Shown here piece after piece: positions 25,508 through 50,033 of a stretch of 64,000 bases of DNA. The first letter of the stretch is position 1; every line of letters begins with the position of its first letter. Made by a program: the position numbers and the translations under genes. Source of the DNA: Candidatus Cloacimonadota bacterium (lineage in GTDB: Bacteria; Muiribacteriota; UBA6191). The DNA is taken from assembly GCA_023954715.1 (NCBI GenBank), contig JAGSHD010000012.1, positions 1 to 64,000 on the forward strand. The letters run 5' to 3'. The notes under the pieces are model-generated. The model did no database searches. It was not told where the DNA came from and saw only the letters and a program-made list of their open reading frames with translations.

Positions 25508-28318
25508 GTGGGATTTCGTATAAATAATAATATTACCGCACTTACTACCCAAGGTAATTTAAACAAAAGTCAACTGGGAATGGCAAAGTCTATAGAAAGA
25601 CTATCTTCTGGTCTCCGAATTAATCGTGGGGCCGATGATGCAGCAGGCTTAACAATCTCAGAAAAACTACGGGGACAAATCCGTGGTTTAAATCGAGCCA
25701 CTGTAAATGCGCAAGATGGTATATCGTTAATTCAAACAGCCGAAGGCGCACTGAACGAAGATGCAGCTATGCTCAATCGTTTAAGAGAGCTAGCGATTCA
25801 ATCTCAAGATGATGCCTTGACCTCCGGGGACCGACTCGAGATTCAAAAAGAAGTGGATCAATTGGTTGATGAAATCGACCGAGTTGCCCAAACCACAGAG
25901 TTTAACACAAAAAAACTATTAGATGGCAGTGCTAGCTCACTAGTATCCTCAGATCATAAGGACTTAAAGGCCTTTCAAACAGGCTCTTCTGCAAATGTTG
26001 CTGGGGATTATAGAGTCAATGTTGATTTATCAACGGTGGGTGAAAAGCAAGTACAAAAATCAGCTATATTAACAAATAGTGACACAGGAAACAAAGCGGG
26101 CTTAGGTACAAAATTATCCGATCTAAGTTCGATGACAGATAGTTCCGGAAATCAAATACTAGAGACTCCAAAAACTGTGACTATTAGAGCAAATGGGGAA
26201 AAAGCAGATATCAGTATATCAGCGGATTTAACCATTGAGCAGTTTACAGATAAGATTGAAAGTGCTATCACATCTTCGGTTGAAGATGGTGGACTTGGTA
26301 TCACTGGATCAACTTTTGGTTTTGATATCACTAAAGCTCAAGTAGTTTTTGAATCCGGAATCAATGGGGTAAATGGAGAGTTATCTATAGCAGCTGATGA
26401 AAGCGTATTAAAGGCTCTAGGTATGCAAATTACCACAGAAGCTGAAAACTCTGCTTATAGAGTAAGTGCTACAAGCACTGGGGTTTCAAATCCTACAACT
26501 ACATCAGCAAATACGACAACTGGCTCAGCTGGTGGCGTAATAGAAGGCTTAAAACTAGACTTTCAATTAGCATCTGAAGCACGAATTGATGGTACGGTAG
26601 AAGCACAAGAAATGATTTCAGTACCGGGTGTCACTAGTATGGACCCTGCTGCAGGTACTCCTGCATTTACCGCAAATACAGATGTCATATTTCAAATACA
26701 CGATACAAATGCAAATACTTCGGAGCAAGCGAATGGAGCAGGTACGGTTAGTGCAGGAATAACTGTACGATTAACTGCCGGTCGATCATATACAATGAAC
26801 TCTATTTCTACCATAATCAATACCTTAGTTGCTGGTGCAAATAACCCCTCAAATTCACTTGCTAAAATTATTGAAAGACCAAGTGGTGCTGTAGAAAACC
26901 CAGATACTTCGTCAAATATGAAAATTCCAAGTTTTAGAGCATCCTTTGATGGTTATAATTTGAAAATTACTTCGGGAGTAACTGGATCCTCTGGATCTAT
27001 TTCAATACTGGCAAATCAAGCAGCTACAGATGTTTTAGGTTTGCAATCTGGTAAAGTACTAGGGACTGGCGGCACCTCTGCTGTGATTTCAGGTGGTACA
27101 GATATTAGTGGTGGAGTCACTTTAGCTGGAACTGGTGTTTTACGAATTCGAACTTTTGATGGAGATTTTAGAACAAATGCTGTTGGTGGAAACACTACTC
27201 CACAAGTAACAGATGATGTGACCTTTCAAAGAGGGGTGGCCATATCAGCTACATCTATAGTAGAGACTTTCAATAATCAATTTTCTACGGATGGTTTAGA
27301 TATTAAGGCATCCATTAATTCTTCTGGTCAGTTAGAGTTTCGTAGTGGTGAAACGGGAGGAGATGCAAAAATCTCTATTGCAGCTGTTACAACTGGAGTA
27401 GGTAGTGTAACTGCTGGTATGACAAATTTAGGCTTGGTATCCAATCAAAACTCTATTGGTAGTGGAGGCAGTGCCGCTGTTTTTACAGGTAATACAGCAT
27501 CGTCTTCAGCTACAACTGGATATGTTTTAAATGGTGGATTTCGTTTTAAAGTTACGGATGCCTATGGTTCGAGTTCTGGTCCGATTCATTTCGCATCAGA
27601 GTCAATTAATGGTCCATCAATTCCATTTGTAAATCCCAATTATACGGATAGTATGAATTATACCAATAAATCTTTTTCATTATCTAAAGAAAAAATTGTT
27701 TCTATCATGGGAGCAAGTAATCTATCAAGTACAGATATTGACTATTCATTTGATGCAGCTGGTAGATTAGACTTTACATCGAGATCTGTTGGTGAAGAGT
27801 CTCGGATTGTTTTGTCTCAAGTTACAGCGACGGATTCAGCTAACTCATTAGCAAGTTTTGGTTTTAGCGTAAATCAAGCTACTCAAGGCTCTGGTAAAAC
27901 AAGCTTTAACCTCCATGTAGCTGACAACAGCTTAAACTTTCAAATTGGTGCTAACCAAAAGCAAGCGATTCAGTTTGGTGTGATTAATACGAGTGCAGAA
28001 GCTTTAGGGTTAAAAGGACTTGATATTACTAATGTAAAATCAGCAACTAGAGCCTTAGGAGCTATTGATACTGCGGTTCAGATTATTTCATCAGAAAGAT
28101 CCAAACTTGGCTCTTTGCAAAATCGAATGACCTCTACTATTAATAACTTAACTGTAACAGCTACAAATTTACAGGCCACCGAGTCTAAGATTAGAGATGT
28201 AGATGTTGCTAAAGAAACGGTTGACTTTACTCGAAATCAAATCATGATTCAAGCAGGTACAGCACAATTAGCTCAGGCAAAAGGCTTAAACCAAAATGCT
28301 TTACAACTTTTGGGTTAA
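25508..28318 (+). CDS. flagellin 1 (936 aa, large central insertion)
   Basis: N-term GFRINNNITAL...IERLSSGLRINRGADDAAGLTISEKLRGQIRGL; C-term ESKIRDVDVAKETVDFTRNQIMIQAGTAQLAQA; GTG start. Confidence 0.95.
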   Translation: MGFRINNNITALTTQGNLNKSQLGMAKSIERLSSGLRINRGADDAAGLTISEKLRGQIRGLNRATVNAQDGISLIQTAEGALNEDAAMLNRLRELAIQSQDDALTSGDRLEIQKEVDQLVDEIDRVAQTTEFNTKKLLDGSASSLVSSDHKDLKAFQTGSSANVAGDYRVNVDLSTVGEKQVQKSAILTNSDTGNKAGLGTKLSDLSSMTDSSGNQILETPKTVTIRANGEKADISISADLTIEQFTDKIESAITSSVEDGGLGITGSTFGFDITKAQVVFESGINGVNGELSIAADESVLKALGMQITTEAENSAYRVSATSTGVSNPTTTSANTTTGSAGGVIEGLKLDFQLASEARIDGTVEAQEMISVPGVTSMDPAAGTPAFTANTDVIFQIHDTNANTSEQANGAGTVSAGITVRLTAGRSYTMNSISTIINTLVAGANNPSNSLAKIIERPSGAVENPDTSSNMKIPSFRASFDGYNLKITSGVTGSSGSISILANQAATDVLGLQSGKVLGTGGTSAVISGGTDISGGVTLAGTGVLRIRTFDGDFRTNAVGGNTTPQVTDDVTFQRGVAISATSIVETFNNQFSTDGLDIKASINSSGQLEFRSGETGGDAKISIAAVTTGVGSVTAGMTNLGLVSNQNSIGSGGSAAVFTGNTASSSATTGYVLNGGFRFKVTDAYGSSSGPIHFASESINGPSIPFVNPNYTDSMNYTNKSFSLSKEKIVSIMGASNLSSTDIDYSFDAAGRLDFTSRSVGEESRIVLSQVTATDSANSLASFGFSVNQATQGSGKTSFNLHVADNSLNFQIGANQKQAIQFGVINTSAEALGLKGLDITNVKSATRALGAIDTAVQIISSERSKLGSLQNRMTSTINNLTVTATNLQATESKIRDVDVAKETVDFTRNQIMIQAGTAQLAQAKGLNQNALQLLG

Positions 28319-28375
28319 AATTGAATCCTAGATTACTTTTTGATGAACTCAATTAGTTAATAATATATTGGCAAA

Positions 28376-28404
28376 CAAAAAAGACTTTTTTTAGGTCTTT
28401 TTTG
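28376..28404 (+). terminator. rho-independent terminator
   Basis: aaaaaagac-tttttttag-gtctttttt. Confidence 0.65.
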
Positions 28405-28457
28405 GCTTTATTCTCTCCAAAACTCATAAATGCTATATTATTTTGTCGTAGTTTATA

Positions 28458-28465
28458 GACGATAG
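28458..28465 (+). promoter_or_regulatory. sigma-28-like -10 element upstream of flagellin 2
   Basis: GACGATAG, ~90-97 nt upstream of GTG 28555; -35 poor. Confidence 0.35.
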
Positions 28466-28488
28466 AAAGACTGAGCTAAGTTAGAGCT

Positions 28489-28552
28489 TGTCAAGGAAGA
28501 CAGATAGTTTGATGATTAGCTTTTTAGATATACTTGCTAATCACGGAGGATT
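28489..28552 (+). promoter_or_regulatory. flagellin 2 leader with two GGA-loop hairpins (CsrA-like sites)
   Basis: TGTC-AAGGAA-GACA (28489-28502) and AATC-ACGGAG-GATT (28539-28552, contains the SD). Confidence 0.55.
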
Positions 28553-28554
28553 CA

Positions 28555-31251
28555 GTGGGATTTCGTATAAACAATAATATTACAGCTTTAGTAGCTCAGG
28601 GAAACTTGGGACAAACTCAAATGGGTATGTCACAGTCTATTGAGAGACTATCTTCCGGATTACGAATTAACCGTGGTGCTGATGATGCAGCAGGCTTAAC
28701 TATTTCAGAAAAGTTAAGGGGTCAGATTAGAGGTCTTAATCGTGCTACTGTAAATGCCCAAGATGGGATCTCTTTGATACAAACGGCAGAAGGCGCTTTG
28801 AATGAAGATGCATCCATGTTGAATCGACTAAGAGAGTTAGCAATTCAATCACAGGATGACGCACTAACATCAGGCGATCGATTAGAGATTCAAAAAGAAG
28901 TTGATCAGTTAGTTGATGAAATAGATCGAATCTCTGAAACGACTGAATTTAATACAAAAAAACTTTTGGATGGAAGCGCGAGCTCATTAGTTTCTACAGA
29001 TCACCAGGACCTTAGAGTCTTTCAAACAGGTTCGAGTAAAGATACAGCAGGAGATTATAAAGTAGATGTGGACTTGTCTTCTGTTGGAGTAAATCAGGTT
29101 CAAAAATCTGGGATACTGTCTAATGAAACATCTGGTAATGTAGCAGGCTTAGGGACTCAATTAGGTGATTTGTCATCAATGACTGATAACTCAGGGAATA
29201 AAATCCTATCTAGTCCTCAAAATATTACTATACGAGCAAATGGTGAATCATCAACGATTACTGTTTCTTCAGATTTAACTGTCGAACAGTTTACAGATAA
29301 GTTGGAAACAGCAATTACTTCTTCAGTCGAAAATGGGGGACTAGGAATCTCAGGTTCGACTTTTGGTTTTGATATAACAAAGGGTCAAATAATATTTGAA
29401 TCAGGAATAAAGGGCTCAAAGGGTGAGCTATCTATTGCAGCTGATGAAGATTTGTTAAAAGCATTTGCAATGCAAATAACTACAGAGGCGGTAGATTCAG
29501 CTTATAAGGTGAGTGCTACAACTACGGGAGTAACAAACCCTACGACTACATCAGCGAACACTACTACAGGTAGTGCAGGAGGAGTTATTGAAGGTTTAAA
29601 ATTAAACTTTGAACTAGCCTCAGAAGCGCGAATTGATGGTTCTATAGAGGCTCAAAAAGTTATACAAATTGGTACTTCTGATGTTGTTTTTACTATTTAT
29701 GATACAAATGGTGATCAGTCGCATCAAGCAAACGGAAATGGTGTAGCAAGTAATCCTATAAATATTTCCCTTACTGCTAATAGAACGTTTTCGCTTGCAT
29801 CAATTCCAGCAATTATCGATACTGCTGTACAAAATCACTTGTTTGGTATTTTTCCTGGATCAAAAGGAACATCTTCTAATTTAAAGCAAGCAGGAGTTAC
29901 TGCTTCTATGGATGGCTACAATTTGAAACTGACATCTTCAATTGGAGGTAGCTCAGGTGTATTGTCAATCTCTGCAAATCAAGCAGCTACTGATATTTTG
30001 GGGATTCAATCGGGGAGAACAGTAGGTGATGGTGGGACAGCTGCGATCATTTCAGGTTCTACAAATTTAAGCTCTGGTGTAACATTAGCTGGTACAGGAG
30101 TTCTTAGAATTCGTGTTCACGATGGTGACTTTCGTACTAACGCAGTTGGTGGCAATACAACATCCCAGGTTACCGATGATATTACTTTTAACAGAGGATC
30201 TGCAATTTCTGCAACTTCTATTGTAGATACTTTCAACAACCAGTTTTCAGCAGATGGCTTAGACATAAAGGCAACTTTAAACTCATCAGGACAATTAGAG
30301 TTTCGTAGTGGTGAAACAGGTGGTGATGCTAAGATATCTATTGCAGCAGTAACAACTGGTGTGGGAAGCGTAACAGCAGGGATGGCTAATTTAGGTTTAG
30401 TGTCTACTCAAAACTCTGTTGGGAGTGGTGGAAATGCAGCAGTGTATACTGGTGTAACAAATAGTAATTCATCAACTTTAGGTTATGTTTTAACTAGGGG
30501 GACTCGATTTACTGTACAAGATCAATATGGATCTAGCTCAGGACTAATTACTCTTGGAACTCCAGGAGTTTTTGATACGCAATCTAGTCGATTTAAGTCT
30601 GAGTCTCATTCAATTTCGCAAGGACAATTGACATCAATTATGGATGCATCAAATCTTTCTTCAACAGATATTTCGTACTCTTTTGATGCTGCTGGTAGAT
30701 TAGATTTTTCTTCTAGAAGTATCGGTGAGAGTGCACGAATAGTTTTGACAGAGTATTCAAGTGCTGATGGTAATGCTATGTTAAATAGTTTAGGAATTGA
30801 TTCGAATCAGTCTGTACAAGGGTCTGGTAAAACAAGTTTTAATTTGCATGTTGCAGATCGAAGTTTAAACTTTCAAATAGGGGCGAATCAAAAACAAGCG
30901 ATTCAATTTGGAGTGATAAATACAAGTGCCGAAGCTCTTGGTTTAAAAGGCTTAGATATAACAAATGTAAAATCAGCAACAAAGGCTTTAGGTGCTATAG
31001 ACTCTGCGGTACAAATTATATCTTCAGAGAGATCAAAACTTGGCTCTCTTCAAAATAGAATGAACTCTACTATAAATAATTTGACGGTTACTGCAACAAA
31101 TTTACAGGCAACAGAATCAAAAATTCGAGATGTAGATGTAGCCAAAGAAACAGTAAACTTCACTCGAAATCAAATTATGATGCAAGCAGGAACAGCTCAA
31201 TTAGCTCAAGCCAAAGGACTAAATCAAAATGCGATGCAATTATTAGGCTAA
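28555..31251 (+). CDS. flagellin 2 (898 aa, large central insertion)
   Basis: Same N- and C-terminal flagellin signatures; GTG start by alignment with flagellins 1 and 3 (track start 28534 is upstream). Confidence 0.95.
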   Translation: MGFRINNNITALVAQGNLGQTQMGMSQSIERLSSGLRINRGADDAAGLTISEKLRGQIRGLNRATVNAQDGISLIQTAEGALNEDASMLNRLRELAIQSQDDALTSGDRLEIQKEVDQLVDEIDRISETTEFNTKKLLDGSASSLVSTDHQDLRVFQTGSSKDTAGDYKVDVDLSSVGVNQVQKSGILSNETSGNVAGLGTQLGDLSSMTDNSGNKILSSPQNITIRANGESSTITVSSDLTVEQFTDKLETAITSSVENGGLGISGSTFGFDITKGQIIFESGIKGSKGELSIAADEDLLKAFAMQITTEAVDSAYKVSATTTGVTNPTTTSANTTTGSAGGVIEGLKLNFELASEARIDGSIEAQKVIQIGTSDVVFTIYDTNGDQSHQANGNGVASNPINISLTANRTFSLASIPAIIDTAVQNHLFGIFPGSKGTSSNLKQAGVTASMDGYNLKLTSSIGGSSGVLSISANQAATDILGIQSGRTVGDGGTAAIISGSTNLSSGVTLAGTGVLRIRVHDGDFRTNAVGGNTTSQVTDDITFNRGSAISATSIVDTFNNQFSADGLDIKATLNSSGQLEFRSGETGGDAKISIAAVTTGVGSVTAGMANLGLVSTQNSVGSGGNAAVYTGVTNSNSSTLGYVLTRGTRFTVQDQYGSSSGLITLGTPGVFDTQSSRFKSESHSISQGQLTSIMDASNLSSTDISYSFDAAGRLDFSSRSIGESARIVLTEYSSADGNAMLNSLGIDSNQSVQGSGKTSFNLHVADRSLNFQIGANQKQAIQFGVINTSAEALGLKGLDITNVKSATKALGAIDSAVQIISSERSKLGSLQNRMNSTINNLTVTATNLQATESKIRDVDVAKETVNFTRNQIMMQAGTAQLAQAKGLNQNAMQLLG

Positions 31252-31270
31252 TCCCTTAATAATCCTAAAT

Positions 31271-31307
31271 GAAAAAAGACTATCGTTTATCCATAGTCTT
31301 TTTTTAT
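31271..31307 (+). terminator. rho-independent terminator
   Basis: aaaaaagactat-cgtttatcc-atagtcttttttt. Confidence 0.75.
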
Positions 31308-31458
31308 ATAGACAAGAGTTATTAATACAAAAACCTTAGAAAAATTAAACCTTTTGTTAAAATATAACGAATACGACATATTAGAGTCAAGTTGCATATT
31401 AAACTAGCAAACTCCAACAAAGTAATGCAAATAAGTATTCAAGCATTCAGCGAAAGGT

Positions 31459-31466
31459 GCCGATAT
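31459..31466 (+). promoter_or_regulatory. sigma-28-like -10 element upstream of flagellin 3
   Basis: GCCGATAT, ~85-92 nt upstream of start; -35-like TCAAGCAT 12 nt upstream. Confidence 0.45.
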
Positions 31467-31489
31467 TATTAGATATTATTGTTTATGGA

Positions 31490-31551
31490 TTCAAGGATGA
31501 AAACTAATATAAGCAATTGAAGGATCGAAATATTAATCATGGAGGATTAAT
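31490..31551 (+). promoter_or_regulatory. flagellin 3 leader with two GGA-loop hairpins (CsrA-like sites)
   Basis: TTCA-AGGA-TGAA (31490-31501) and ATTAATC-ATGGAG-GATTAAT (31532-31551, contains the SD). Confidence 0.55.
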
Positions 31552-34343
31552 TGGGATTTCGAATTAATAATAATGTTACTGCTTTAGTTGCTCAAGGAAA
31601 CCTAGGAAAAACCCAGATGGGTTTATCAACATCTATTGAGAGGCTGTCTTCTGGACTACGAATCAATCGTGGTGCTGATGATGCAGCAGGTTTAACTATT
31701 TCTGAAAAGCTTAGAGGGCAGATAAGAGGCCTCAACAGAGCTACAGTAAACGCTCAAGATGGAATCTCATTAATTCAAACAGCTGAAGGTGCATTAAATG
31801 AAGATGCATCGATGCTAAACAGACTAAGAGAGCTAGCCATTCAATCTCAAGATGATGCTTTAACTTCAGGTGATCGCTTAGAAATTCAAAAAGAAGTAGA
31901 TCAATTAGTTGATGAGATTGATCGAATTGCTTTAACTACTGAATTTAACACAAAAAACTTATTGGATGGTTCGGCAAGCTCTTTGGTTTCTACGGATCAT
32001 ATAGATTTAAAGGCTTTTCAAACTGGTTCATCTAGTGAGGCTGCTGGAGATTATAAGGTTCAGATCGGGGTAAGTACAGTTGGTACGAAACAAGCTCAAA
32101 AATCAGCAATTTTAATTGACTCATTATCATCAGAAAAAGCTGGGTTAGGTACCAAGTTAGGCACTTTAGCATCTATGACGGATAACTCTGGAAATGAAAT
32201 TCTAGAGACCTCAAAAACAATTACACTTAGAGCAAATGGTGAAAAATCAGATGTAACAGTATCTTCGGATCTAACCATTGATCAGTTTACTGATATGATT
32301 GAGTCAGCAATTACGACTTCAGTTGAAGAAGGGGGACTAGGGCTCACTGGGTCCACTTTTGGCTTTGATATATCTACATCACAAATTGTGTTTGAGTCTG
32401 GTAGTTATGGACAAAACGGAGACCTATCAATTGCTGCCGACGAAAATGTACTCAAAGCTTTAGGAATGCAAATTACTGTTGAATCGGAAGACTCTGCGCA
32501 TACTGTTCAAGCAACATCGACGGGAGTATTAAACCCAGTATCTACTTCTGCAAATACTACAACAGGTACGGCACAAGGCGTCATTGATGGAATCAGTTTA
32601 AAGTTTGACCCTCCTTCTGAAGCTAGAATCGATGGAACCATCGAAGCGCAACAAATGATTACAATTCCAGGGCCATATAATTATATAAATGGCGGAGTTC
32701 CGGATTCAATTAATAATGATGTAATTTTTTATATTCATGACACAAATGCAGATGTATCTCACCAAGCAAATGGAAATAACACTGCTACGGCAGGGGTAAA
32801 GGTACGTTTGACAGCAGGTAGATCTTATACTATGAACTCAATTTCTAGTATAATTAATAATTTAACCCAAGCAGCAAATAATCCAAGGGACTCATTAGTT
32901 AAAATTACCAGGTTTCCTGGTGCAGGAATAAACCCAAATACCTCAACAAATATGCAAGTACCAGGTTTTCAGGCTTCATTTGATGGGTACAATTTACAAA
33001 TAACTTCATCTACAGGTGGTTCATCAGGATCAATTTCGATTTCAGCCAATCCAGCTGCAACAACTGTTTTAGGATTGCAATCAGGACGAGTATTAGGAGA
33101 TGGTGGCGAAGCGGCTAAGATAACAGGCACTACAGATGTTAGCTCAGGAGTTACTTTAGCTGGTACGGGAGTTTTGAGACTAAGAGTATTTGATGGAGAC
33201 TATCGAACTAACTCAGTTGGTGGTAATACAACGCCAAGAGTTATAGATGATGTTACATTTGAACGAGGAGTTGCCATATCAAGTACTTCTGTTGTTCAAA
33301 CATTCAATAATCGTTTTTCAAGTGACGGATTAGATATAACTGCATCCATAAACTCTGCTGGTCAATTAGAGTTTCGAAGCGGTGAAACAGGTGGAGATGC
33401 AAAAATCTCAATCGCTGCTGTTACTACAGGGGTTGGTAGTGTGACAGCAGGTATGGCAAACTTTGGTCTAGTGGCGAATCAAAATGCCGTTGGAAGCAAG
33501 GGAAATGCAGCAGTTTTTACTGGTCAGACTGCTAATAGTGCGGCAACTACGGGATATGTTATGAATGGGGGCTTTCGTTTTCAAGTTACTGATGCGTATG
33601 GAGCGAACTCTGGTACCATGCATTTTGCATCTGGTTCAATCAATGCTCCTAGCGGTATCGGTAACTATGAAGATAGTGCTGATTACACAACAAAGTCCTT
33701 TTCATTATCTAAAGGACAAATAACATCTATTGTTAGTGCTAGTAATTTATCTAGTACAGATGTGGATTACTCTTTTGATGCAGCAGGTAGATTGGACTTT
33801 CATTCAAGATCAGTTGGAGAGTCTTCAAGAATTACATTATCTCAAGTTGGTACTACTGATGCTATCAACTCTATAAACAGTCTAGGTTTTAGTGTAAATC
33901 AAGCTGTGCAAGGCTCAGGTCAAACTAGTTTTAATTTACATATTAGTGATCGAAGTTTAAATTTTCAAATTGGTGCGAACCAGCAACAAGCAATTCAGTT
34001 TGGTGTTATTAATACGAGTGCAGAAGCATTAGGACTCAAGGGGCTAGATATTACTAATGTAAAATCAGCAACACGAGCTTTAGGTGCTATTGATAATGCT
34101 GTTCAAGTTATTTCATCAGAAAGATCTAAACTGGGATCGTTACAAAATAGGCTTACATCAACCATTAATAACTTAACTGTGACTTCAACTAACTTGCAAG
34201 CCACGGAGTCTAAGATTAGAGATGTTGATGTTGCAAAAGAAACAGTAGAGTTCACTAGAAACCAAATTATGATACAAGCAGGTACAGCTCAACTAGCTCA
34301 AGCGAAAGCTTTACCTCAAAACGCTATGCAACTCTTAGGCTAA
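31551..34343 (+). CDS. flagellin 3 (930 aa, large central insertion)
   Basis: Same flagellin signatures; TTG start inferred by alignment with the other two leaders. Confidence 0.95.
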   Translation: MGFRINNNVTALVAQGNLGKTQMGLSTSIERLSSGLRINRGADDAAGLTISEKLRGQIRGLNRATVNAQDGISLIQTAEGALNEDASMLNRLRELAIQSQDDALTSGDRLEIQKEVDQLVDEIDRIALTTEFNTKNLLDGSASSLVSTDHIDLKAFQTGSSSEAAGDYKVQIGVSTVGTKQAQKSAILIDSLSSEKAGLGTKLGTLASMTDNSGNEILETSKTITLRANGEKSDVTVSSDLTIDQFTDMIESAITTSVEEGGLGLTGSTFGFDISTSQIVFESGSYGQNGDLSIAADENVLKALGMQITVESEDSAHTVQATSTGVLNPVSTSANTTTGTAQGVIDGISLKFDPPSEARIDGTIEAQQMITIPGPYNYINGGVPDSINNDVIFYIHDTNADVSHQANGNNTATAGVKVRLTAGRSYTMNSISSIINNLTQAANNPRDSLVKITRFPGAGINPNTSTNMQVPGFQASFDGYNLQITSSTGGSSGSISISANPAATTVLGLQSGRVLGDGGEAAKITGTTDVSSGVTLAGTGVLRLRVFDGDYRTNSVGGNTTPRVIDDVTFERGVAISSTSVVQTFNNRFSSDGLDITASINSAGQLEFRSGETGGDAKISIAAVTTGVGSVTAGMANFGLVANQNAVGSKGNAAVFTGQTANSAATTGYVMNGGFRFQVTDAYGANSGTMHFASGSINAPSGIGNYEDSADYTTKSFSLSKGQITSIVSASNLSSTDVDYSFDAAGRLDFHSRSVGESSRITLSQVGTTDAINSINSLGFSVNQAVQGSGQTSFNLHISDRSLNFQIGANQQQAIQFGVINTSAEALGLKGLDITNVKSATRALGAIDNAVQVISSERSKLGSLQNRLTSTINNLTVTSTNLQATESKIRDVDVAKETVEFTRNQIMIQAGTAQLAQAKALPQNAMQLLG

Positions 34344-39876: not shown

Positions 39877-41259
39877 ATGATTATAAAGTATATCACTTGT
39901 ATTGGTTTGAGTTTGTTATTATTACAAGGTTGTACCGAAAAACAAAAACCCGTCAATGAAACCATAAGTATTTCCCCTAAAGATAATGCGGAGTTTATAG
40001 AGCTGAGAGGTCTGGCTTTTTCAAATAAAGAAACGGGCTTAACTACTCCAAGAAGAGTCAATGGTACTGTCGAGTTTATTGTAGAAAGCGGTACTAAAGT
40101 AAAAAAAGGTGATTTACTAGTTAAAATTAAATCATCGAACCAAAGCAAACAGATGAAAAAATCTAAAAACCGATTATTTTACGCTAAACGCAAACTTAAA
40201 AATCAAAAAGAGCAAGCAGCCAAAGAACAATTGAAACTAGAGTTAGCTGTGTTAGAAAAACAGTTTGCTTACACTATTAAAAAAATAGAGATCGAGTATA
40301 AGTCGGGTGAAAAAGATAAGAGAGTTATACAGTCGCTCGACTTAAAGACAAAACTACTAGATGAAAAGTTGATTAATTTATCAGAAAAGATGGAGTCCTA
40401 CCAAAGTCTAGCAAAATTAAACTCTATTTCTGTAGACGAGATAGAAAAAATGAAAAAAGAGCTCGCTAGCACCAAACTAAATAGAGATCTACAAGAACTA
40501 GATAAAAAGGATCAAGTGCAAGGGGTCATCGGACAAGATAAAGATCAGCTACTACTAGAGCTTGATTTGCTCAATCATGACTTAAAAAAAGCTAAGCTAG
40601 CTTTAAGCGAAAAGATTAAATTGTTTCCTTTAGATATTGAAAAACGTGAATTAGTTGTAAAAAAGAGACAAGCAGGATTAAAGAAGATTGCTCAAACTAT
40701 CAAGCAGAGTAGTTTGCACTCAAAAGTAGATGGCGTTTTTGTAAGAGTAAAACACCCCTGGAACGGTAATTATATTGAGAAGGGAGTACAGGTATGGAGA
40801 GGGATGTCTGTTGGTAAGGTGCTTGACTATGTAAATATTTCAGTGAAGTTTCGTTTACCAGAAAAATTTGTAGACTTAGTTCAGCCTGGCATGAAACTCT
40901 CCTTTTATTCATTACAAAATCCAGATAAAATCCTTGAAGCTAAGGTGAAAAAAATTGACTCTATCGCCACCCCTTTAGATCCAGTCAATAGAAAGGCAAA
41001 TAAGTTTCATTGGATGTTTATAGAGTCTGAATTAAAAGATAGCAAGTTTTTACCTTCAGAAACTTTTGTTTGTAAAATTGAGTTAAATAACTATAAAAAC
41101 TCTATTTTTGTACCTAAAGAGTTTGCTAAAGTGGCTGACGGACAGCTTCATATAAATACTAAAAATGGCCTGATAAAGACGAAAGACTTTGTGAAAGGCT
41201 TAGACTATTTCATTTTAAAAGATCAAAACAAAACATTGGATATTGATTATGCTCTTTAA
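39877..41259 (+). CDS. HlyD/RND-type periplasmic adaptor lipoprotein
   Basis: Lipobox LLLLQGCTEK; barrel-sandwich halves VNGTVEFIVESGTKVKKGDLLVKIKS and VDGVFVRVKHPWNGNYIEKG; long helical hairpin. Confidence 0.8.
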   Translation: MIIKYITCIGLSLLLLQGCTEKQKPVNETISISPKDNAEFIELRGLAFSNKETGLTTPRRVNGTVEFIVESGTKVKKGDLLVKIKSSNQSKQMKKSKNRLFYAKRKLKNQKEQAAKEQLKLELAVLEKQFAYTIKKIEIEYKSGEKDKRVIQSLDLKTKLLDEKLINLSEKMESYQSLAKLNSISVDEIEKMKKELASTKLNRDLQELDKKDQVQGVIGQDKDQLLLELDLLNHDLKKAKLALSEKIKLFPLDIEKRELVVKKRQAGLKKIAQTIKQSSLHSKVDGVFVRVKHPWNGNYIEKGVQVWRGMSVGKVLDYVNISVKFRLPEKFVDLVQPGMKLSFYSLQNPDKILEAKVKKIDSIATPLDPVNRKANKFHWMFIESELKDSKFLPSETFVCKIELNNYKNSIFVPKEFAKVADGQLHINTKNGLIKTKDFVKGLDYFILKDQNKTLDIDYAL

Positions 41260-43939
41260 ACTACTTTTAACCATACTCTTATTACAATCCAAGCTTTTTT
41301 GTGTCGCTGTAGATGTAGGAGACGTTGCACGTCATATTATTTTAGACGGTGTAGTATCAGCTCATAAAAGCGTTTCTGTGACTTCACCTTTTACTGGCAA
41401 AGTCACTATGATTATTGAAGATGCGACGGTGGTAAAAAAGGGAGATGTACTTTTTGAACTAGATACATACCAAATTAAACAAGAACTGGAAATGTCTAAA
41501 ATACGCTTCTTTTTAAAAGAACTAGAAGAGAAAAAACTGAGAAACACACATAAAATTGCAGCGTTGACAGACTCAAATGCACTGATAGAATCTAAAAAAA
41601 ATTATGAAGTGGCCAAGGAGCAATTAGAAGTAGAGCTATATGCTAGAGGCGCTGTAGAAATGAAAAGAAAACAGCTGGGTATTTGGAAAAACAAACAAAT
41701 GATCGGCTTTTATAAAAATCATATTAAAGAGTTAGAAGGCTTAAGTAAGAAAGGGGCCTTGTCTACGATTCAGTTAAACGATGAAAAATTAAAATATAAA
41801 GAATTTCAAATTAACTTACAACAAATGGAATTAGACTTTGAAAAGCTAAAAGCCGGAGACTTGTTAAAAATTGAAAAGGCTAAGCGATCCTTAAAAAAAG
41901 CTCAAATGAAGTATGAACACTTAAAAAAGCAAAACTCAGACAAAGAGCAAGAGAGAAAGTCAGCTCTTGAAATTATTCAGATTGATATTGCTGACTTAAA
42001 AAGTGAGTATAAATTAAAAACATCTGCTTTAGAATCATCGAAAGTAAAAGCTAAGCATGATGGTATATTTTTGATAAAAAAACATTGGGTTGGCAATGGT
42101 AGAGATTTGTATAAAATAGGTCATCAAGCAGATGAAGGTGGAGTAATCGGCAAAATCAGTGTTAGTAAAGATCTAGATTTAACTTTTGAAGTGGATGAAA
42201 AGGATATGGCCAATATAAAGATGGGACAAAAGCTATCATTTCAAGCCACAGCTTTAGGAGAAAAAGACTTTAAAGCTCAGGTTTATAGTATCGATCAAAG
42301 TATTACAGAGGCTTCAGGTCGTTGGCAAAAAGACTATTATCATCTTAAAAACCTAAATGTTTCTGCTCTCATTGATATTCCTGATCTTCGTTTAAAGCCA
42401 CGAATGACAGCCTTGGCAAAACTATTAATAGAACGAAAGAAAGATGTTAAAAGGGTACCCATAAATTGCCTCAATGCTAGTAATGAATTGCAAACTATAG
42501 ACGGAACCATATTAAAAGATAAGGTCGTGTTTATTGGTGATGACTATGCGCAAGTCCATGAGGTGAATGATTCACTTCGATTAAAGTGCAAGCAAGCTTT
42601 AAATCTTCCAAAACAATTGCTAAACAAAGAGACAATAACTACGACCTCAGAGTTTATTGATCAAGTATCTGGAACAGGAGAGTTAAAAGTAAGAAATGAG
42701 ATTCTTTTAAGTCCATTTTTCTCGACTACAATTAAAAGTATTTTAAAATCTGGAAAAGAAGTAAAAAAAGGCGATATACTCATTTCACTAGATACAAAAG
42801 ACATTGATACAGACTTGCAAGCGAAAGAAGTGAGTGCCACAGAAAAAGCAGTAGATTTTAAAAGTACTGAGTTAAAGTCTCAACAAGGTTTTGATGGACT
42901 ACTAAGAGAGATTGAAGAATTAAATTTACAATTTAAAGTAGCAAATAAAAAATTAGAGATTTTAAATAGAGAGGGTACAGATATTGGAATACAAAAGGCA
43001 AAGTTAAACATGAAAAAATCGCAAGTAGAAAGTGATTATCAGCGTTTATATTTTGGTATTCAAACCGAGTTAAAAAATCAAGGATATATAAAGAGTCTAG
43101 ATTATCAAAAAAGTTTTGAGAGTTTGAAAAGCTCAGAAATTGAAATGGAAATCTCAAAATTAGAAGATTACTTAGAAAACTCACCAAAGTCTCGAAGTTC
43201 AAGAAAAATACAAGCTTTAGAAGTAGAGAGTATTGAGACTAAAATTAAAAACAAAAAAGAGCAGTTAGAGTCTGAAAAGGCTAACCTAGATTTAGACATT
43301 AAATTTGCAAAACTGCAGTTAGATTTAGCAAACTTCGATGTGGAGATTTTAAGAGACAAAAAGAAGAACTCAGAAATTAAAGCGGATAAAGATGGCTATT
43401 TTTTAATTTCTGATCATTGGGCTCAAGGTAAAATAGTACCATATAAAGTAGGAGACAATACCTCACCAGGGGGAGTGATAGGTCGACTAGTAGAGTTTGA
43501 AAACTTTTATATTAAAGGTTTATTAGAAGAAAATACTTATCATCGTCTTAGGGTTGGGCAAAAAATAAAATTTCATTTGAAGGGTCGTGCTGAGCAAAAG
43601 TTTGAAGGTATTTTAAATGAGATTAGTTCAGCACCACGACTAGATGGTACATTTAGTGGAGGAACCCCTCGGATCCATGTAAAAATATCTGTAGAAGCAA
43701 AGTCAAAATCCTTTCAACCAGGTTCTTCTGTACAGTATGAAGTTTTATTAACAAAAAAGAGACAACAGTTATCTATTCCTTTTAAAGCTTTATATCAAGA
43801 TAAAGACAAATACTTTGTATTTACGAGTTCATCTCATAAGAAGGTAGAAGTTTCGAAGGGAATTGTACAAAACCAAAAAGTAGAAATATTGAGTGGACTC
43901 GCTGAGGGTCAGAGTATATTTTGGCAGGAGCAAGAGTGA
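41249..43939 (+). CDS. internally duplicated HlyD-type periplasmic adaptor
   Basis: Two successive lipoyl/barrel-sandwich units: GKVTMIIEDATVVKKGDVLFELDTYQI...KHDGIFLIKKHW and TTIKSILKSGKEVKKGDILISLDTKDI...DKDGYFLISDHW. ATG 41249 follows the track start at 41243. Confidence 0.8.
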   Translation: MLFKLLLTILLLQSKLFCVAVDVGDVARHIILDGVVSAHKSVSVTSPFTGKVTMIIEDATVVKKGDVLFELDTYQIKQELEMSKIRFFLKELEEKKLRNTHKIAALTDSNALIESKKNYEVAKEQLEVELYARGAVEMKRKQLGIWKNKQMIGFYKNHIKELEGLSKKGALSTIQLNDEKLKYKEFQINLQQMELDFEKLKAGDLLKIEKAKRSLKKAQMKYEHLKKQNSDKEQERKSALEIIQIDIADLKSEYKLKTSALESSKVKAKHDGIFLIKKHWVGNGRDLYKIGHQADEGGVIGKISVSKDLDLTFEVDEKDMANIKMGQKLSFQATALGEKDFKAQVYSIDQSITEASGRWQKDYYHLKNLNVSALIDIPDLRLKPRMTALAKLLIERKKDVKRVPINCLNASNELQTIDGTILKDKVVFIGDDYAQVHEVNDSLRLKCKQALNLPKQLLNKETITTTSEFIDQVSGTGELKVRNEILLSPFFSTTIKSILKSGKEVKKGDILISLDTKDIDTDLQAKEVSATEKAVDFKSTELKSQQGFDGLLREIEELNLQFKVANKKLEILNREGTDIGIQKAKLNMKKSQVESDYQRLYFGIQTELKNQGYIKSLDYQKSFESLKSSEIEMEISKLEDYLENSPKSRSSRKIQALEVESIETKIKNKKEQLESEKANLDLDIKFAKLQLDLANFDVEILRDKKKNSEIKADKDGYFLISDHWAQGKIVPYKVGDNTSPGGVIGRLVEFENFYIKGLLEENTYHRLRVGQKIKFHLKGRAEQKFEGILNEISSAPRLDGTFSGGTPRIHVKISVEAKSKSFQPGSSVQYEVLLTKKRQQLSIPFKALYQDKDKYFVFTSSSHKKVEVSKGIVQNQKVEILSGLAEGQSIFWQEQE

Positions 43940-45213
43940 AATTTGGATTTTTATTTAAAGAGAGTTGGACTGCCCTAAAAAGTTCATTTATTCGTACGAT
44001 TTTAACTATGCTAGGGGTTATTATTGGTGTAGCTGCTGTAATTGCTATGATGAGTATCGGTGGTGGAGCACAAGAAGAGACAATTAAGCAGATTCGATCA
44101 CTTGGTGCCAATAATGTTTATGTAAAGAGTTCTAGATTATCTGGAGATGCTTTAAAAAATGCTAAAGAGCTTTTATCAGAAGGCTTAACCAGAAATGATT
44201 TGAGTACAATTTTAAAAAAGACTCCCTATTTATTAGGAGGGACATTTGAGGCAAAATTTAATGGTGTTTTAAAGTACCAAAAAAATGAGCCCAAGGTAAA
44301 CTTAATAGGGATTGGGGCAAATTACTTTGAACTTGTGCCAGCTGAGTTGCGCTTTGGTAGGTTATTTTCTTCTAGAGATTTTGAAGATGCTTACAAAGGT
44401 GTGATTTTAGGAGCTCAAGTTTCAACAGAGCTTTTTGGAAACTTAAACCCTGTTGGTAAGTTGATAACTATAAAAGGAAAGTCCTTTAAAATTATTGGAG
44501 TGATCTTAGGTAAACATAAGGCAGAAAGTGCAATTAAAAGCGGCGATATTAAAATTGGAGAGAGAGAAACATCTAGAGATGTATATTTTCCTTATTCAGT
44601 GATACAAAATCGTTTTCCATTAGTTTTAAGCGACAAAACAGATTCTGAAAATGATCCAACATATTCAGAGCTATCTACATTAATTATTAAGTTGAAGGAT
44701 CCAAATCAAATCGTACTAATTAAGTCAATGATTCAAAAGATTTTAGATTATCGCCATAAAGGTGTGGATGATTATCAAATTATCGCTCCTGTAGATTTAT
44801 TAGAGAAATCCAATAAGGTGCAAGATATCTTTAATTTGGTTATGATATTTATTGCAGGACTCTCTTTGTTAGTGGGTGGTATTGGGATCATGAACATCAT
44901 GTTGGCAAATATTCAGCAAAGAATAAAAGAGATAGGGATTCGTCGTGCTATTGGAGCAACCAAAGAAGATATCTTGGTGCAGTTTTTATTTGAAGCTGTA
45001 TTAATTTCTGTTGGCGGGGGAGTATTAGGTGTATTTTTTGGCATAGCTATTAGCTATGGAATTTCTATATTTACTGGTTGGAGTACTGTTTTATCAGTTA
45101 GCTCTATAGTTATATCTTTTATAGTTTCTGTTACTGTTGGATTGATCTTTGGGATATTTCCAGCAAGAAAAGCATCTGAGATGGATCCAATTACAGCACT
45201 TCGATACGAGTAA
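43936..45213 (+). CDS. MacB/FtsX-type ABC transporter permease
   Basis: FIRTILTMLGVIIGVAAVIAMMSIGGGAQEETIKQIRSLGANNVYV; GGIGIMNIMLANIQQRIKEIGIRRAIGATKEDIL; FPARKASEMDPITALRYE; GTG overlaps the upstream TGA (gtga). Confidence 0.9.
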   Translation: MKFGFLFKESWTALKSSFIRTILTMLGVIIGVAAVIAMMSIGGGAQEETIKQIRSLGANNVYVKSSRLSGDALKNAKELLSEGLTRNDLSTILKKTPYLLGGTFEAKFNGVLKYQKNEPKVNLIGIGANYFELVPAELRFGRLFSSRDFEDAYKGVILGAQVSTELFGNLNPVGKLITIKGKSFKIIGVILGKHKAESAIKSGDIKIGERETSRDVYFPYSVIQNRFPLVLSDKTDSENDPTYSELSTLIIKLKDPNQIVLIKSMIQKILDYRHKGVDDYQIIAPVDLLEKSNKVQDIFNLVMIFIAGLSLLVGGIGIMNIMLANIQQRIKEIGIRRAIGATKEDILVQFLFEAVLISVGGGVLGVFFGIAISYGISIFTGWSTVLSVSSIVISFIVSVTVGLIFGIFPARKASEMDPITALRYE

Positions 45214-45395
45214 TTTTTATTAGTTCATCAAAATTAGCGCCATAATAAAAACTTTTGTTTGCGTTGTATAGACCGTAGTTAAACGACACCTTGTTTTTCT
45301 GATAGTATATTTAGAACAACAATAAAAGGGACGTTTGATATGGTGTCAGACTCCAAAAAATTAGTGTGGATTAACAACACATTCAGGAGCAGAGT

Positions 45396-46730
45396 ATGAA
45401 AAGATTATTATTTCCAATGGCTATTTCTATGGCTATTTCAGTAACTTCAGCAGCAACACATCAAGACTTACAAAACGAAATTGCAGCATTAAGAGACATG
45501 GTTTTGGCCCAACAAGATCAAATTGCAGCATTAATATCACAAAAAGATAAAGCTCATAAAGCACATAAAAAAATGAGTAAAAAAAGTGGAGTTAAATCAA
45601 AGTTTAAATCAAAGGTTGGAGGATACGTAAAAGTAGCAACTCATTTTGATGACAATGGTAAAAACTTTACAACAGCAGCAAATGACGGTGTAATCGGTAT
45701 TGGACCTGTGGCTAATCATGCAGCTGGTACAGAAGAGCATACAAACTCATTCACAGCAGCAGAAACTAGATTAAACTATTCTGTTTGGGGACCTAAATGG
45801 AAGGGCTGGGATACAAAGGCTTTTATTGAAGGTCATTTCTATACAGGAAACTTTGGATTGCGACATGCATTTATCGACTTAAAAAAGGATGATAAAGAAA
45901 TCTTGTTTGGACAGTATTGGAGTTCATTTGGATCTGCAAAATATATCCCAGAGACAGCTGATTTTGCTGTTGGTATTCGATCTGGTGGATTATTCGCTAG
46001 AAACGAGCAGTTGAGATATAGCGATAGAATTGGTTCTTCAGATTTCAAATGGCAAGTAGCTATTGAGAGTGATGGAGCTACACAAACAGCAGCAACAAAA
46101 ACTTCAAACGGTCATGACTTACCATTTCAAGTATATAGCCTAGAGTATAACCCAAAAAGAAAAGACGCTAGAAAAGCTGTTTATTGGCATAAAGTAATTA
46201 ATACTAAAGCAGCTATTGATATCTTAGACGGTAGTAGAGAAGATAATACTCTTGGTGCAGCTAGTACACAAGAAATCGGTGGATGGGCATTTTCAACTGT
46301 TTTTGGGGTAATTGAGCCAAAAGACGGTAAAAAAGAAGGTGCATTAACTTTAGCTGGATCTGCATTTGATGGAAACGGTTTATCAAACTGGGGTCAGTTA
46401 GCATTTGGATCAACAATGGCAGCTGGAACTAAAAAGGCAGAAGCTAGTGAAGGTATGCATGTTCAATTAGATTACTATCCAAAAGAAAACTTACGTCTAG
46501 CAATTTCTCATGGAGAAGTAGAAGCATCTTTTGAAGACGGTTATAGCTTGACTTTAGGTCAAATGACTAAAAATGAGAGAGACGTATTCAGTGCTATTTG
46601 GCAAGACAATGCTAATTTGAAGTACGGAATCGAATATGCTAAAAGTTCAACTACTTATCAAACAGCAGCAACTACTGCAACTGATAAAGAAAACAACAGA
46701 ATATCATTGTTTGCACAATATTCATTCTAG
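45396..46730 (+). CDS. DcaP-like outer-membrane porin
   Basis: Signal peptide; N-terminal coiled coil LQNEIAALRDMVLAQQDQIAAL; SKVGGYVKVATHFDDNGKNF; alternating beta pattern, terminal aromatic FAQYSF. Confidence 0.75.
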   Translation: MKRLLFPMAISMAISVTSAATHQDLQNEIAALRDMVLAQQDQIAALISQKDKAHKAHKKMSKKSGVKSKFKSKVGGYVKVATHFDDNGKNFTTAANDGVIGIGPVANHAAGTEEHTNSFTAAETRLNYSVWGPKWKGWDTKAFIEGHFYTGNFGLRHAFIDLKKDDKEILFGQYWSSFGSAKYIPETADFAVGIRSGGLFARNEQLRYSDRIGSSDFKWQVAIESDGATQTAATKTSNGHDLPFQVYSLEYNPKRKDARKAVYWHKVINTKAAIDILDGSREDNTLGAASTQEIGGWAFSTVFGVIEPKDGKKEGALTLAGSAFDGNGLSNWGQLAFGSTMAAGTKKAEASEGMHVQLDYYPKENLRLAISHGEVEASFEDGYSLTLGQMTKNERDVFSAIWQDNANLKYGIEYAKSSTTYQTAATTATDKENNRISLFAQYSF

Positions 46731-46778
46731 TTAATACTTTAAAATCAATTGGAGTTGTATAGCTCCATAGTTTTTAAG

Positions 46779-46814
46779 CAAAAGATCATACTATATTTAG
46801 TGTGGTCTTTTTGT
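46779..46814 (+). terminator. rho-independent terminator after the porin gene
   Basis: aaaagatcatacta-tatt-tagtgtggtctttttg stem with G-U pairs and T-run. Confidence 0.6.
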
Positions 46815-46900
46815 TTATATCGGGACAGATAGAGTGTTTGAATAGAGGCATAAATTGATAAAAAATAGGGTATGAGAGCTAGAAATAAGGGTTTTGAGTT

Positions 46901-46916
46901 TGGCACGCTATCTGCT
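46901..46916 (+). promoter_or_regulatory. sigma-54 (RpoN) type -24/-12 promoter
   Basis: TGGCACGctatCTGCT versus TGGCACG-N4-TTGCW: one mismatch, with invariant GG and GC at correct spacing. Confidence 0.65.
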
Positions 46917-46926
46917 ATTAAACACC

Positions 46927-47067
46927 TGTAGCTTAGAACTTACTATACGAATGAACTTGCAATAAGCTATACATTAGTAGGAGCCTAGATTACGTCAATC
47001 CTTGCGCTCTCAATATTTGACTCTTCTGCTCCCAATCGAAGATAATCAGGCTCCTACTTATTTTTTT
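46927..47067 (+). ncRNA. candidate sigma-54-driven structured small RNA (5' hairpin + three-way junction + U-tract)
   Basis: TAGCTTA/TAAGCTA hairpin; P1 AGTAGGAGCCT+GATTA / TAATC+AGGCTCCTACT; P2 GTCAA/TTGAC; P3 TCTTC/GAAGA; followed by tattttttt; no ORF in the track. Confidence 0.55.
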
Positions 47068-47364
47068 CACAGTTCTGTGAATCTTCTTTTATTTATTAAA
47101 TTCAAATCATTTTATTTAAGCTTATCAATTTGATATCAACATTTATTAAAAGTTTTAGTTTGTGGAGTGTCATACTGTCGCTTGAAAAGCCAAAGCTTTT
47201 TATTTTTACTACTTAGGCGAAGTACAGGGTTTTATTGAAGTTCGATACGTATAAAGCCCGTCAAATTAAACTTATGATCACACATATAGGCTTAAGACCA
47301 TGGTTTAAATTGTTGTAGTGATTTTGATGATAGAGGATTTTAGATTAAAGTCATTACTTTGTGC

Positions 47365-47553
47365 TTATTTTGATTTGTAAGGGCTATTACTTTGGTTTAC
47401 TTGAATCAATACTTGATTTAAGTGGTGGCTCCATTCAAAAAATTGATCTACTTTTTTAAAGGTAGAAATGTTAGCGAAGCTTCCTAATAAAGTAAAACAA
47501 ATCATACAAATTAGGGCAAAAAGGGATAATAATAAACAAATAGATACATTCAT
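47365..47553 (-). CDS. possible small single-TM protein
   Basis: 62-aa ORF with N-terminal TM; no clear Shine-Dalgarno. Confidence 0.3.
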   Translation of the reverse strand: MNVSICLLLSLFALICMICFTLLGSFANISTFKKVDQFFEWSHHLNQVLIQVNQSNSPYKSK

Positions 47554-47614
47554 AATAGAGTTATCGACAAAACTTTATAGTTGATGAATGATATATTTTA
47601 ATGGTATTGAAAAA

Positions 47615-47785
47615 TTAGGAGAAGGTTCCAGTCAGTGGAGTATTGTCTATTTCAATAGCATACTCTTCAAAATCCTCTAATAAAGACATAACAAAAGCCT
47701 CTCCAAGAACTTCAGCTAGCTCTTGATTGATCTTTTTACTACTTGGTGTAGTTTGTTTATGTATGTAAGATATTTTGTTTTTCAT
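47615..47785 (-). CDS. possible 56-aa small protein (below the track size cutoff)
   Basis: ATG...TAA: MKNKISYIHKQTTPSSKKINQELAEVLGEAFVMSLLEDFEEYAIEIDNTPLTGTFS; no strong Shine-Dalgarno. Confidence 0.3.
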   Translation of the reverse strand: MKNKISYIHKQTTPSSKKINQELAEVLGEAFVMSLLEDFEEYAIEIDNTPLTGTFS

Positions 47786-47896
47786 AAATATGTCTTCGGC
47801 TAAGTAAGAGCTTCACTGAAGGATCTAATATTAGAATGTATACAAAATAAAGGGCTCAAAGCAGGGTTGTGTATATCTTATGGTTATCGTGAGCTT

Positions 47897-49429
47897 TTAT
47901 TCTAACCACACTCGAATGGTTTTATTATTTTCTTGTAGACTGAATAGATCGCCTGATGGGTAACCATTTAGATGAGTTTGATGAATAATGCTATCAATAT
48001 CAATGGATCTAGATTGAATAACAGTGAGTACATCTGGAGGTATTAAATGCTTCAATTGATTCACTAAATGTCGTTGGAAAGTAAGCTGTACTTTCTGAGT
48101 TGAGTTTTCAAATACTGAAATTTTTAGTGATTGAGCCATATCATCGTAACTATAGTTTTCACTATGAGCTACCTTTAGATTTGATAATTCTACTTCATAT
48201 GACTTCAATAAATTTTGTATATGAGGACGAAAGAAAAAAGAAGGGTTTAAAGTAGATAAAAAATGAAAAAGACCGATAAAAGATTTCATTAAAAAAATTA
48301 GTTCAGCTGGTGCGGCCAAGCGAAAATTCCATCTTTCATCTCCTAGAATTTGATTGGTTAAAGCTGTGCGGTTCCAGTTTTTGAATTCAAAGCGACCAAG
48401 AGAAGTAAAAGGAGCAAAAAAGACTTCATTTAAAGCAGGAAGCCTTTTTATGATTGGGTATAAATAATTTGGATTAAAGCCTAGTGATAAGTAATATGAA
48501 TAAGGACTAAAACTAGCTTTATTTAAGGTACCTTCTAATAGCTTTAAAATAGATAGTGATTTAGACTTTTCTAAAGTCCCCATAGATCCAAAGTCATAAA
48601 ATACAACTTGTAATTTTGTCCCTAGTTTTCTGAAGCCTAGATTACCTGGATGTGGATCAGCGTGATAAAACCCTTTGTGAAAAACAGAGTAAGCAAATAC
48701 ATTCATTAATATATTTTGTAGTTGAGTTTTGTCATTGGTAGAAAACGAGCTTAAGTCATTGAGGGGCTTGGACTCTTCAAATTGGCTTACTAAAACTTTT
48801 GAGGTAGAATGTTCAAGATAGACTTTAGGGACTATAAAACCCTCAATTTTTGATTCAAGGGCATCTTCTAAAAATCTTTTTTGATGCAGTGCTTCTTGTT
48901 TATAGTCTAGCTCTTGCTCTATGTTTTTCGAGATTTCATTTTGATAGTCTTCTAGTTGAAAATTAGCCCCCTTTTTAGAAAAAGGAGAAGCTACCCAACC
49001 CAACAAACTTAAGTCTGTTTGAATAGACTTTTTAATATTTGGGTATTGCACTTTTATAGCGACTGTATCTCCACTTTTTAGAGTAGCCTTATGAACCTGA
49101 CCTAAAGATGCGCAATATGGGTCGTCTGATAGGGAGTCTAATACATCATAGGGATCTTTTTGCCACTCATTGCTTAAAATAGATAAGATTACAGCTTTAC
49201 TAAGAGCTTTACCTTGGTTTTGTAGACTTTCGAACTCTTTGAATTGGGGATCGTCTGACATAGACATCCATTGTCCCATTTTTTGGGGAAGACCTTTTAA
49301 CTCTCCCATGCTTTCAATTAGGTAATTTCTAGCTTGAGATTTGACGTGATCATTTTCTTGTTGGTTTAGAGATTTAACTTGAAAGCTTGTTTGAACTATT
49401 TTAAAAACACGTTTTAGTTTTTCAAACAT
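47897..49429 (-). CDS. ABC1/AarF/UbiB-family kinase-like protein
   Basis: KGLPQKMGQWMSM-like KxGQ region; SLGQVHKATLKSGDTVAIKVQYPNI; HKGFYHADPHPGNLGF; VFYDFGSMG. Start at ATG 49429 rather than the track start. Confidence 0.85.
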   Translation of the reverse strand: MFEKLKRVFKIVQTSFQVKSLNQQENDHVKSQARNYLIESMGELKGLPQKMGQWMSMSDDPQFKEFESLQNQGKALSKAVILSILSNEWQKDPYDVLDSLSDDPYCASLGQVHKATLKSGDTVAIKVQYPNIKKSIQTDLSLLGWVASPFSKKGANFQLEDYQNEISKNIEQELDYKQEALHQKRFLEDALESKIEGFIVPKVYLEHSTSKVLVSQFEESKPLNDLSSFSTNDKTQLQNILMNVFAYSVFHKGFYHADPHPGNLGFRKLGTKLQVVFYDFGSMGTLEKSKSLSILKLLEGTLNKASFSPYSYYLSLGFNPNYLYPIIKRLPALNEVFFAPFTSLGRFEFKNWNRTALTNQILGDERWNFRLAAPAELIFLMKSFIGLFHFLSTLNPSFFFRPHIQNLLKSYEVELSNLKVAHSENYSYDDMAQSLKISVFENSTQKVQLTFQRHLVNQLKHLIPPDVLTVIQSRSIDIDSIIHQTHLNGYPSGDLFSLQENNKTIRVWLE

Positions 49430-49436
49430 GAGCAAC

Positions 49437-50033
49437 CTAGTAAAATCGATATCGACTGTGAGTTCTAGCTCTAGACTGTGTCCGAATTTTACGCTTTGGC
49501 AGAGGTTCTTCAAAGGCCCAAGCGACTTCGTCGTGTACATTTTTATTTTTCATAAAACTTGGATTCACCCCGAGTCTACGCCAGACTTCTTTTGATAATG
49601 CGATTCCGGCAGGATAAGTTATTTTTTCGCCAATATCATTAGTTGGTGATAGTTCAGCTCGCGGGTCTGTTTTACTTAGCCAATAAGGGTTTCTAGTGAA
49701 CCATGGCCCAATTTCTTTGACTCGTGCTTTAACAACTCGGTGAGTACGGGGATAAAAGATTTTAACAACTTTCCCAAGTGCAGAGGGATCCGGTAGGGCT
49801 ACAGCCAATTCTTTTCTTCCGATTCTTCCTTTTGATACAGAGCTTTGATATAAGGTCTCTGCATAGACATAGTTAAAATGTTGAAAGCGTCTCTTAAAAG
49901 GTTTTTGAAAATCGGTTTTTAGATGACCTAATACATGACCAAAAGGACGTAAGATACGCTTACTTTCACGTATAATATGCACATGGCAAAAAACATTGGA
50001 GATGGTGAATAAGAACAAGAATAATAATTTCAT
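49437..50033 (-). CDS. exported protein with RlpA-like double-psi beta-barrel-type domain
   Basis: Signal peptide; VVKARVKEIGPWFTRNPYWLS...TYPAGIALSKEVWRRLGV. Confidence 0.5.
   Translation of the reverse strand: MKLLFLFLFTISNVFCHVHIIRESKRILRPFGHVLGHLKTDFQKPFKRRFQHFNYVYAETLYQSSVSKGRIGRKELAVALPDPSALGKVVKIFYPRTHRVVKARVKEIGPWFTRNPYWLSKTDPRAELSPTNDIGEKITYPAGIALSKEVWRRLGVNPSFMKNKNVHDEVAWAFEEPLPKRKIRTQSRARTHSRYRFY

Follow-up and report, generated by a model that had tools for sequence, protein, structure and literature searches.

Between the convergent porin (+) and ABC1-kinase (-) genes of the window (the whole 64,000-nt stretch of DNA analysed here) lies a small + strand element with a solidly terminator-like end. 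We tentatively propose that it specifies a lineage-specific, trans-acting orphan small RNA (sRNA) that ends in a terminator of its own and may repress the porin next to it, and we consider a stand-alone terminator about equally likely. The case is mainly of value as a caution, since a single strong stem carries the elaborate fold and neighbouring ordinary terminators reach equal scores. The features of the locus are the following.

45214-47430, no strand: segment with the porin gene and the candidate RNA, missing from the congener G001 locus (right edge approximate)
45386-45391, + strand: porin Shine-Dalgarno GGAGCA (sequence)
45396-46730, + strand: DcaP-like porin gene, 444 aa, proposed target (similarity via a G034 homologue and PDB 6eus)
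46750-46811, + strand: the porin's own terminator hairpins (46750-46767 and 46780-46811), upstream of the candidate RNA
46894-46899, + strand: poor -35 TTGAGT, 16-nt spacer to the -10-like element
46913-46921, + strand: putative weak extended -10-like TGcTATTAA (read in the sequence)
46927-46971, + strand: 5' hairpin, 9 pairs, 27-nt loop (RNAfold)
About 46928-47066, + strand: candidate RNA, ~139 nt (~140) (sequence and RNAfold)
46976-47058, + strand: P1, 16 pairs and one bulged A46987, enclosing P2 and P3 (sequence and RNAfold)
46994-47021, + strand: P2 hairpin GTCAA/TTGAC, loop containing UUGCGCUCUCAA (RNAfold)
47022-47042, + strand: P3 hairpin TCTTC/GAAGA, loop with the anti-Shine-Dalgarno-like UGCUCCC (47027-47033) (RNAfold)
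47059-47067, + strand: U-tract TATTTTTTT directly after P1, an intrinsic terminator end (sequence)

The sequences and coordinates listed in the first-pass annotation were all correct on re-reading, and RNAfold reproduced the fold that it had proposed, namely the 5' hairpin, P1 with its bulged A, P2 and P3, followed by UAUUUUUUU. Both the minimum free energy and the centroid structure of 46920-47070 correspond to this fold, with a folding energy of -36.4 kcal/mol (z -4.40; 0 of 200 shuffles as good), and the UGCUCCC of the P3 loop is predicted to be unpaired in the ensemble. The assignment to the + strand holds, because a U-tract lies 3' of the stem on that strand only; no T-run adjoins P1 on the - strand, and a bidirectional terminator serving the - strand operon was rejected. 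A protein-coding reading was likewise dropped and the non-coding nature of the element borne out, the longest overlapping open reading frames reaching at most 43 aa.

The excess of folding over chance clearly resides almost wholly in P1. The P1-P3 domain (46976-47058) yielded a z of -5.26, unmatched in 500 shuffles, whereas 6-17% of shuffles equalled the 5' hairpin (z -1.6; 31/500), P2 (z -1.5; 44/500) or P3 (z -1.2; 84/500) when each was taken alone; for the inner P2+P3 domain z was -1.1 (67/500). In the same 144-nt test, terminator regions from other parts of the window scored from -5.3 to -5.8; in an intergenic scan of the window the best values, -5.8 to -5.3, fell at positions 73, 34348, 1066, 58561 and 46711, and the candidate, at -4.7 to -5.5, ranked among such ordinary terminator regions and not above them. 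Shuffling of a 700-nt intergenic region produced a U-tract after a fold within 5 kcal/mol of that of the element in ~3% of cases (47/1500). The first-pass statement that the element is too organised for a simple terminator is thus not established, since only P1 is clearly beyond chance and several ordinary terminators of the window fold as well or better. Nor is the three-way junction as a whole supported as exceeding chance, P2 and P3 lying within the shuffle range, and its organisation is not yet evidence for anything beyond the terminator-like end.

The absence of a known RNA class was confirmed, as no Rfam 15 family (6S, SRP, tmRNA, riboswitches and known sRNAs included) reached its curated gathering threshold anywhere in the window; at relaxed E-values, the best overlapping match was mir-617, at a non-credible 24.1 bits (threshold, 80). 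The element also proved to be single-copy in its own 4.58-Mb genome, by blastn and by covariance model. DNA searches of 95 other genomes, 39 of them from the phylum and including one congener and two family members, returned no homologue and only chance matches of 15-30 bp. The paired matches (81%) on G001:C21 were rejected as homologues as they sit in repetitive coding DNA; positions 1400-2300 there (L010) belong to a long, repetitive stretch of cadherin- or RTX-like coding DNA, in which the NORP72 assembly has many ambiguous bases. When a covariance model was made from the single sequence, only the element itself scored credibly across 37 genomes (36 relatives and its own), and the same held on the window and the syntenic G001 locus. 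Plasmid and phage records contained chance matches only, and none of the viral contigs matching the P1 pattern, themselves chance matches, matched the covariance model. Scanning genome contigs with the porin as query found nothing, while the ABC1 alignment had NORP72 as its sole match.

The genomic context distinguishes the element from the end of a porin transcript. Given that the porin gene has its own terminator hairpins, the candidate RNA is not simply the porin 3' end. The next genes (47365-49540) are on the - strand, and a riboswitch or leader was therefore rejected, there being no downstream + strand gene. Two small - strand genes (47365-47785; 62 and 56 aa) lie downstream of the ABC1-kinase gene, and both are recognisable at the same place in G001.

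In this congener (NORP72, contig NVVD01000013.1), HlyD-like and MacB-like genes directly precede the ABC1-kinase gene (452-bp gap), whereas the same MacB-like and ABC1-kinase neighbours are 2.7 kb apart in the window. Homology in the aligned gap begins only at about 47430, and 45214 to ~47430 (~2.2 kb) is therefore a segment that either the present genome has gained or the congener has lost, and which carries both the porin gene and the candidate RNA. Its ends have no repeats or shared words of 8 bases or more. On its left, the order of HlyD-like genes (460 and 898 aa; the longer one looks like a fusion of two adaptor units) and MacB-like permease gene (39877-45213) is conserved in G001. Further upstream lie three consecutive, unusually large flagellin genes (25508-34343; 936, 905 and 930 aa), with Flagellin_N and Flagellin_C at the ends of the proteins and ~700-aa inserts between them; in G001, too, a large flagellin (940 aa) is encoded upstream of the same HlyD/MacB genes.

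The porin protein has no Pfam match. Its start resembles a signal peptide, a coiled coil is predicted at the N-terminus, and the last residue is Phe. It is distantly similar to a G034 protein (27%, E 7e-6), which itself matches the DcaP-like porin 6eus (E 1e-6). A single-sequence structure prediction (pLDDT 34) was left aside.

According to the porin-repression model, transcription would start at the extended -10 element of a stand-alone sRNA gene of ~139 nt and finish at the intrinsic terminator made up of P1 and the U-tract. The exposed UGCUCC of the P3 loop, or perhaps UCUGCUCC should two P3 pairs open, would then bind the porin Shine-Dalgarno region GGAGCA(GA), block the entry of ribosomes and lower porin synthesis. 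We infer a trans-acting, base-pairing mode for the RNA, probably with Hfq, for which the genome has a gene. The transcription signals are uneven: the terminator is good and the promoter weak, the promoter assumed behind the predicted +1 of the first-pass annotation being an extended -10 with a poor -35 that is absent from the list returned by a sigma-70 scan.

Judged from sequence, UGCUCC of the predicted P3 loop is the exact complement of the porin GGAGCA, and opening two P3 pairs extends the match to eight bases. When targets were scored as the hybrid energy plus the opening energies of both partners, the loop-to-Shine-Dalgarno contact placed the porin start first of the 46 gene starts of the window (-8.2 kcal/mol), and third of 230 in a 304-kb sample made of the window and 240 kb more of the genome, where other genes pair better. 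Five of 200 shuffled RNAs scored as well against the porin. This predicted pairing is suggestive at the 1-3% level, but it had been noticed by reading before it was put to the test, which counts against it. Moreover, the P3-loop seed is not porin-specific, because GGAGCA is common at Shine-Dalgarno distance genome-wide: GGAGCA-N4-10-ATG occurs 257 times, versus 56 for the reversed control, before roughly 200 genes (~5%). RNAcofold of the RNA with the porin leader favoured another contact, one made by the 5' arm.

The + oriented fold with its U-tract, the location in the same variable segment as the porin and the precedent of other sRNAs encoded next to porin genes, such as micC, favour the repression model, against which stand the lack of homologues and so of any covariation, the chance-level 5' hairpin, P2 and P3, and the weak promoter. 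We regard it as a possibility on a par with a free-standing long intrinsic terminator, in which the P1 stem and U-tract, around a weakly structured 50-nt interior, would end read-through or pervasive transcription between the convergent genes, the 5' hairpin, P2 and P3 being incidental. Such a terminator would account for the position between convergent genes, for the fact that P1 and the U-tract alone surpass chance, and for the equal or better z-scores of ordinary terminators in the window. Nevertheless, two terminator hairpins of the porin gene already lie ~250 nt upstream, and an interior of 50 nt is long for a terminator, the loop of which is usually 3-8 nt.

An sRNA directed at targets other than the adjacent porin, namely one that represses envelope genes of the resident genome as has been reported for IpeX, is a less likely explanation. 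The P2 loop UGCGCUCUC is perfectly complementary over 9 nt to GAGAGCGCA, the Shine-Dalgarno sequence of an exported 186-aa protein (L051 2303-2863, - strand; likely ATG internal), and this start has the best predicted pairing of the 304-kb sample (-11.8 kcal/mol). A precedent for a porin-borne sRNA exists in IpeX, located by the nmpC porin gene. IpeX has been named as an ompC-targeting sRNA (PMC5745476). By a rough estimate, however, one 9-nt match is expected by chance in ~230 gene starts, and there are no homologues in which target conservation could be seen. Least probable of all is a palindrome acting as DNA and not as RNA, such as a remnant (MITE, IS end or attachment site) of the arrival of the porin segment. 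The element does lie inside the congener-absent segment, but it is single-copy, whereas a MITE or dispersed palindromic repeat would be expected in several copies per genome, the segment ends share no word of 8 bases or more, and the polarity of the U-tract would be left unexplained. An attC site was rejected as well, the sequence having no attC core motif: the stem ends read AGTAGG... and ...CCTACT, which do not fit the core sites GTTRRRY (R') and RYYYAAC (R'').

If transcribed, the candidate would be an orphan among an already known kind of regulator, the trans-acting base-pairing sRNAs; it is currently a single-genome prediction. If expressed, it would be a lineage-specific regulatory RNA from a marine group that has been little studied, and one more instance of an sRNA gene next to a porin gene. 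A bolder extension of the porin-repression model, which we rate as quite improbable, is that the porin and a dedicated sRNA capping its translation constitute a two-part cassette, gained or lost as a unit, that would damp the cost of a new porin.

Among known systems, the enterobacterial MicF and MicC offer the closest layout in this comparison, each being a trans-encoded RNA of ~100 nt beside a porin gene with an intrinsic terminator end; micC adjoins ompN, and ompC-micF has the same layout (PMC5745476). Both silence a porin by pairing around the translation start of its mRNA, and the candidate is proposed to do likewise. The candidate has no sequence similarity to them (no Rfam match), and it follows the porin on the same strand with that very porin as its putative target, whereas MicC and MicF target another porin. 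The alpha-r14 and NfeR1 'cuckoo' sRNAs occlude ribosome-binding sites through hairpin loops with an anti-Shine-Dalgarno sequence (PMC10746234), and the candidate is also predicted to present such a sequence in a loop. Membership in this group was nonetheless rejected on motif and on architecture, as the CCUCCUCCC anti-Shine-Dalgarno motif (PMC10746234) is absent from the candidate, which bears UGCUCCC and UGCGCUCUC in the loops of a three-way junction, and as three motif-bearing hairpins there contrast with one predicted hairpin and a three-way junction here. Finally, the ordinary Rho-independent terminators of the genome share with the candidate a G+C-richer stem followed by a U-tract and similar folding z-scores, and differ from it in its 50-nt interior with possible sub-hairpins.
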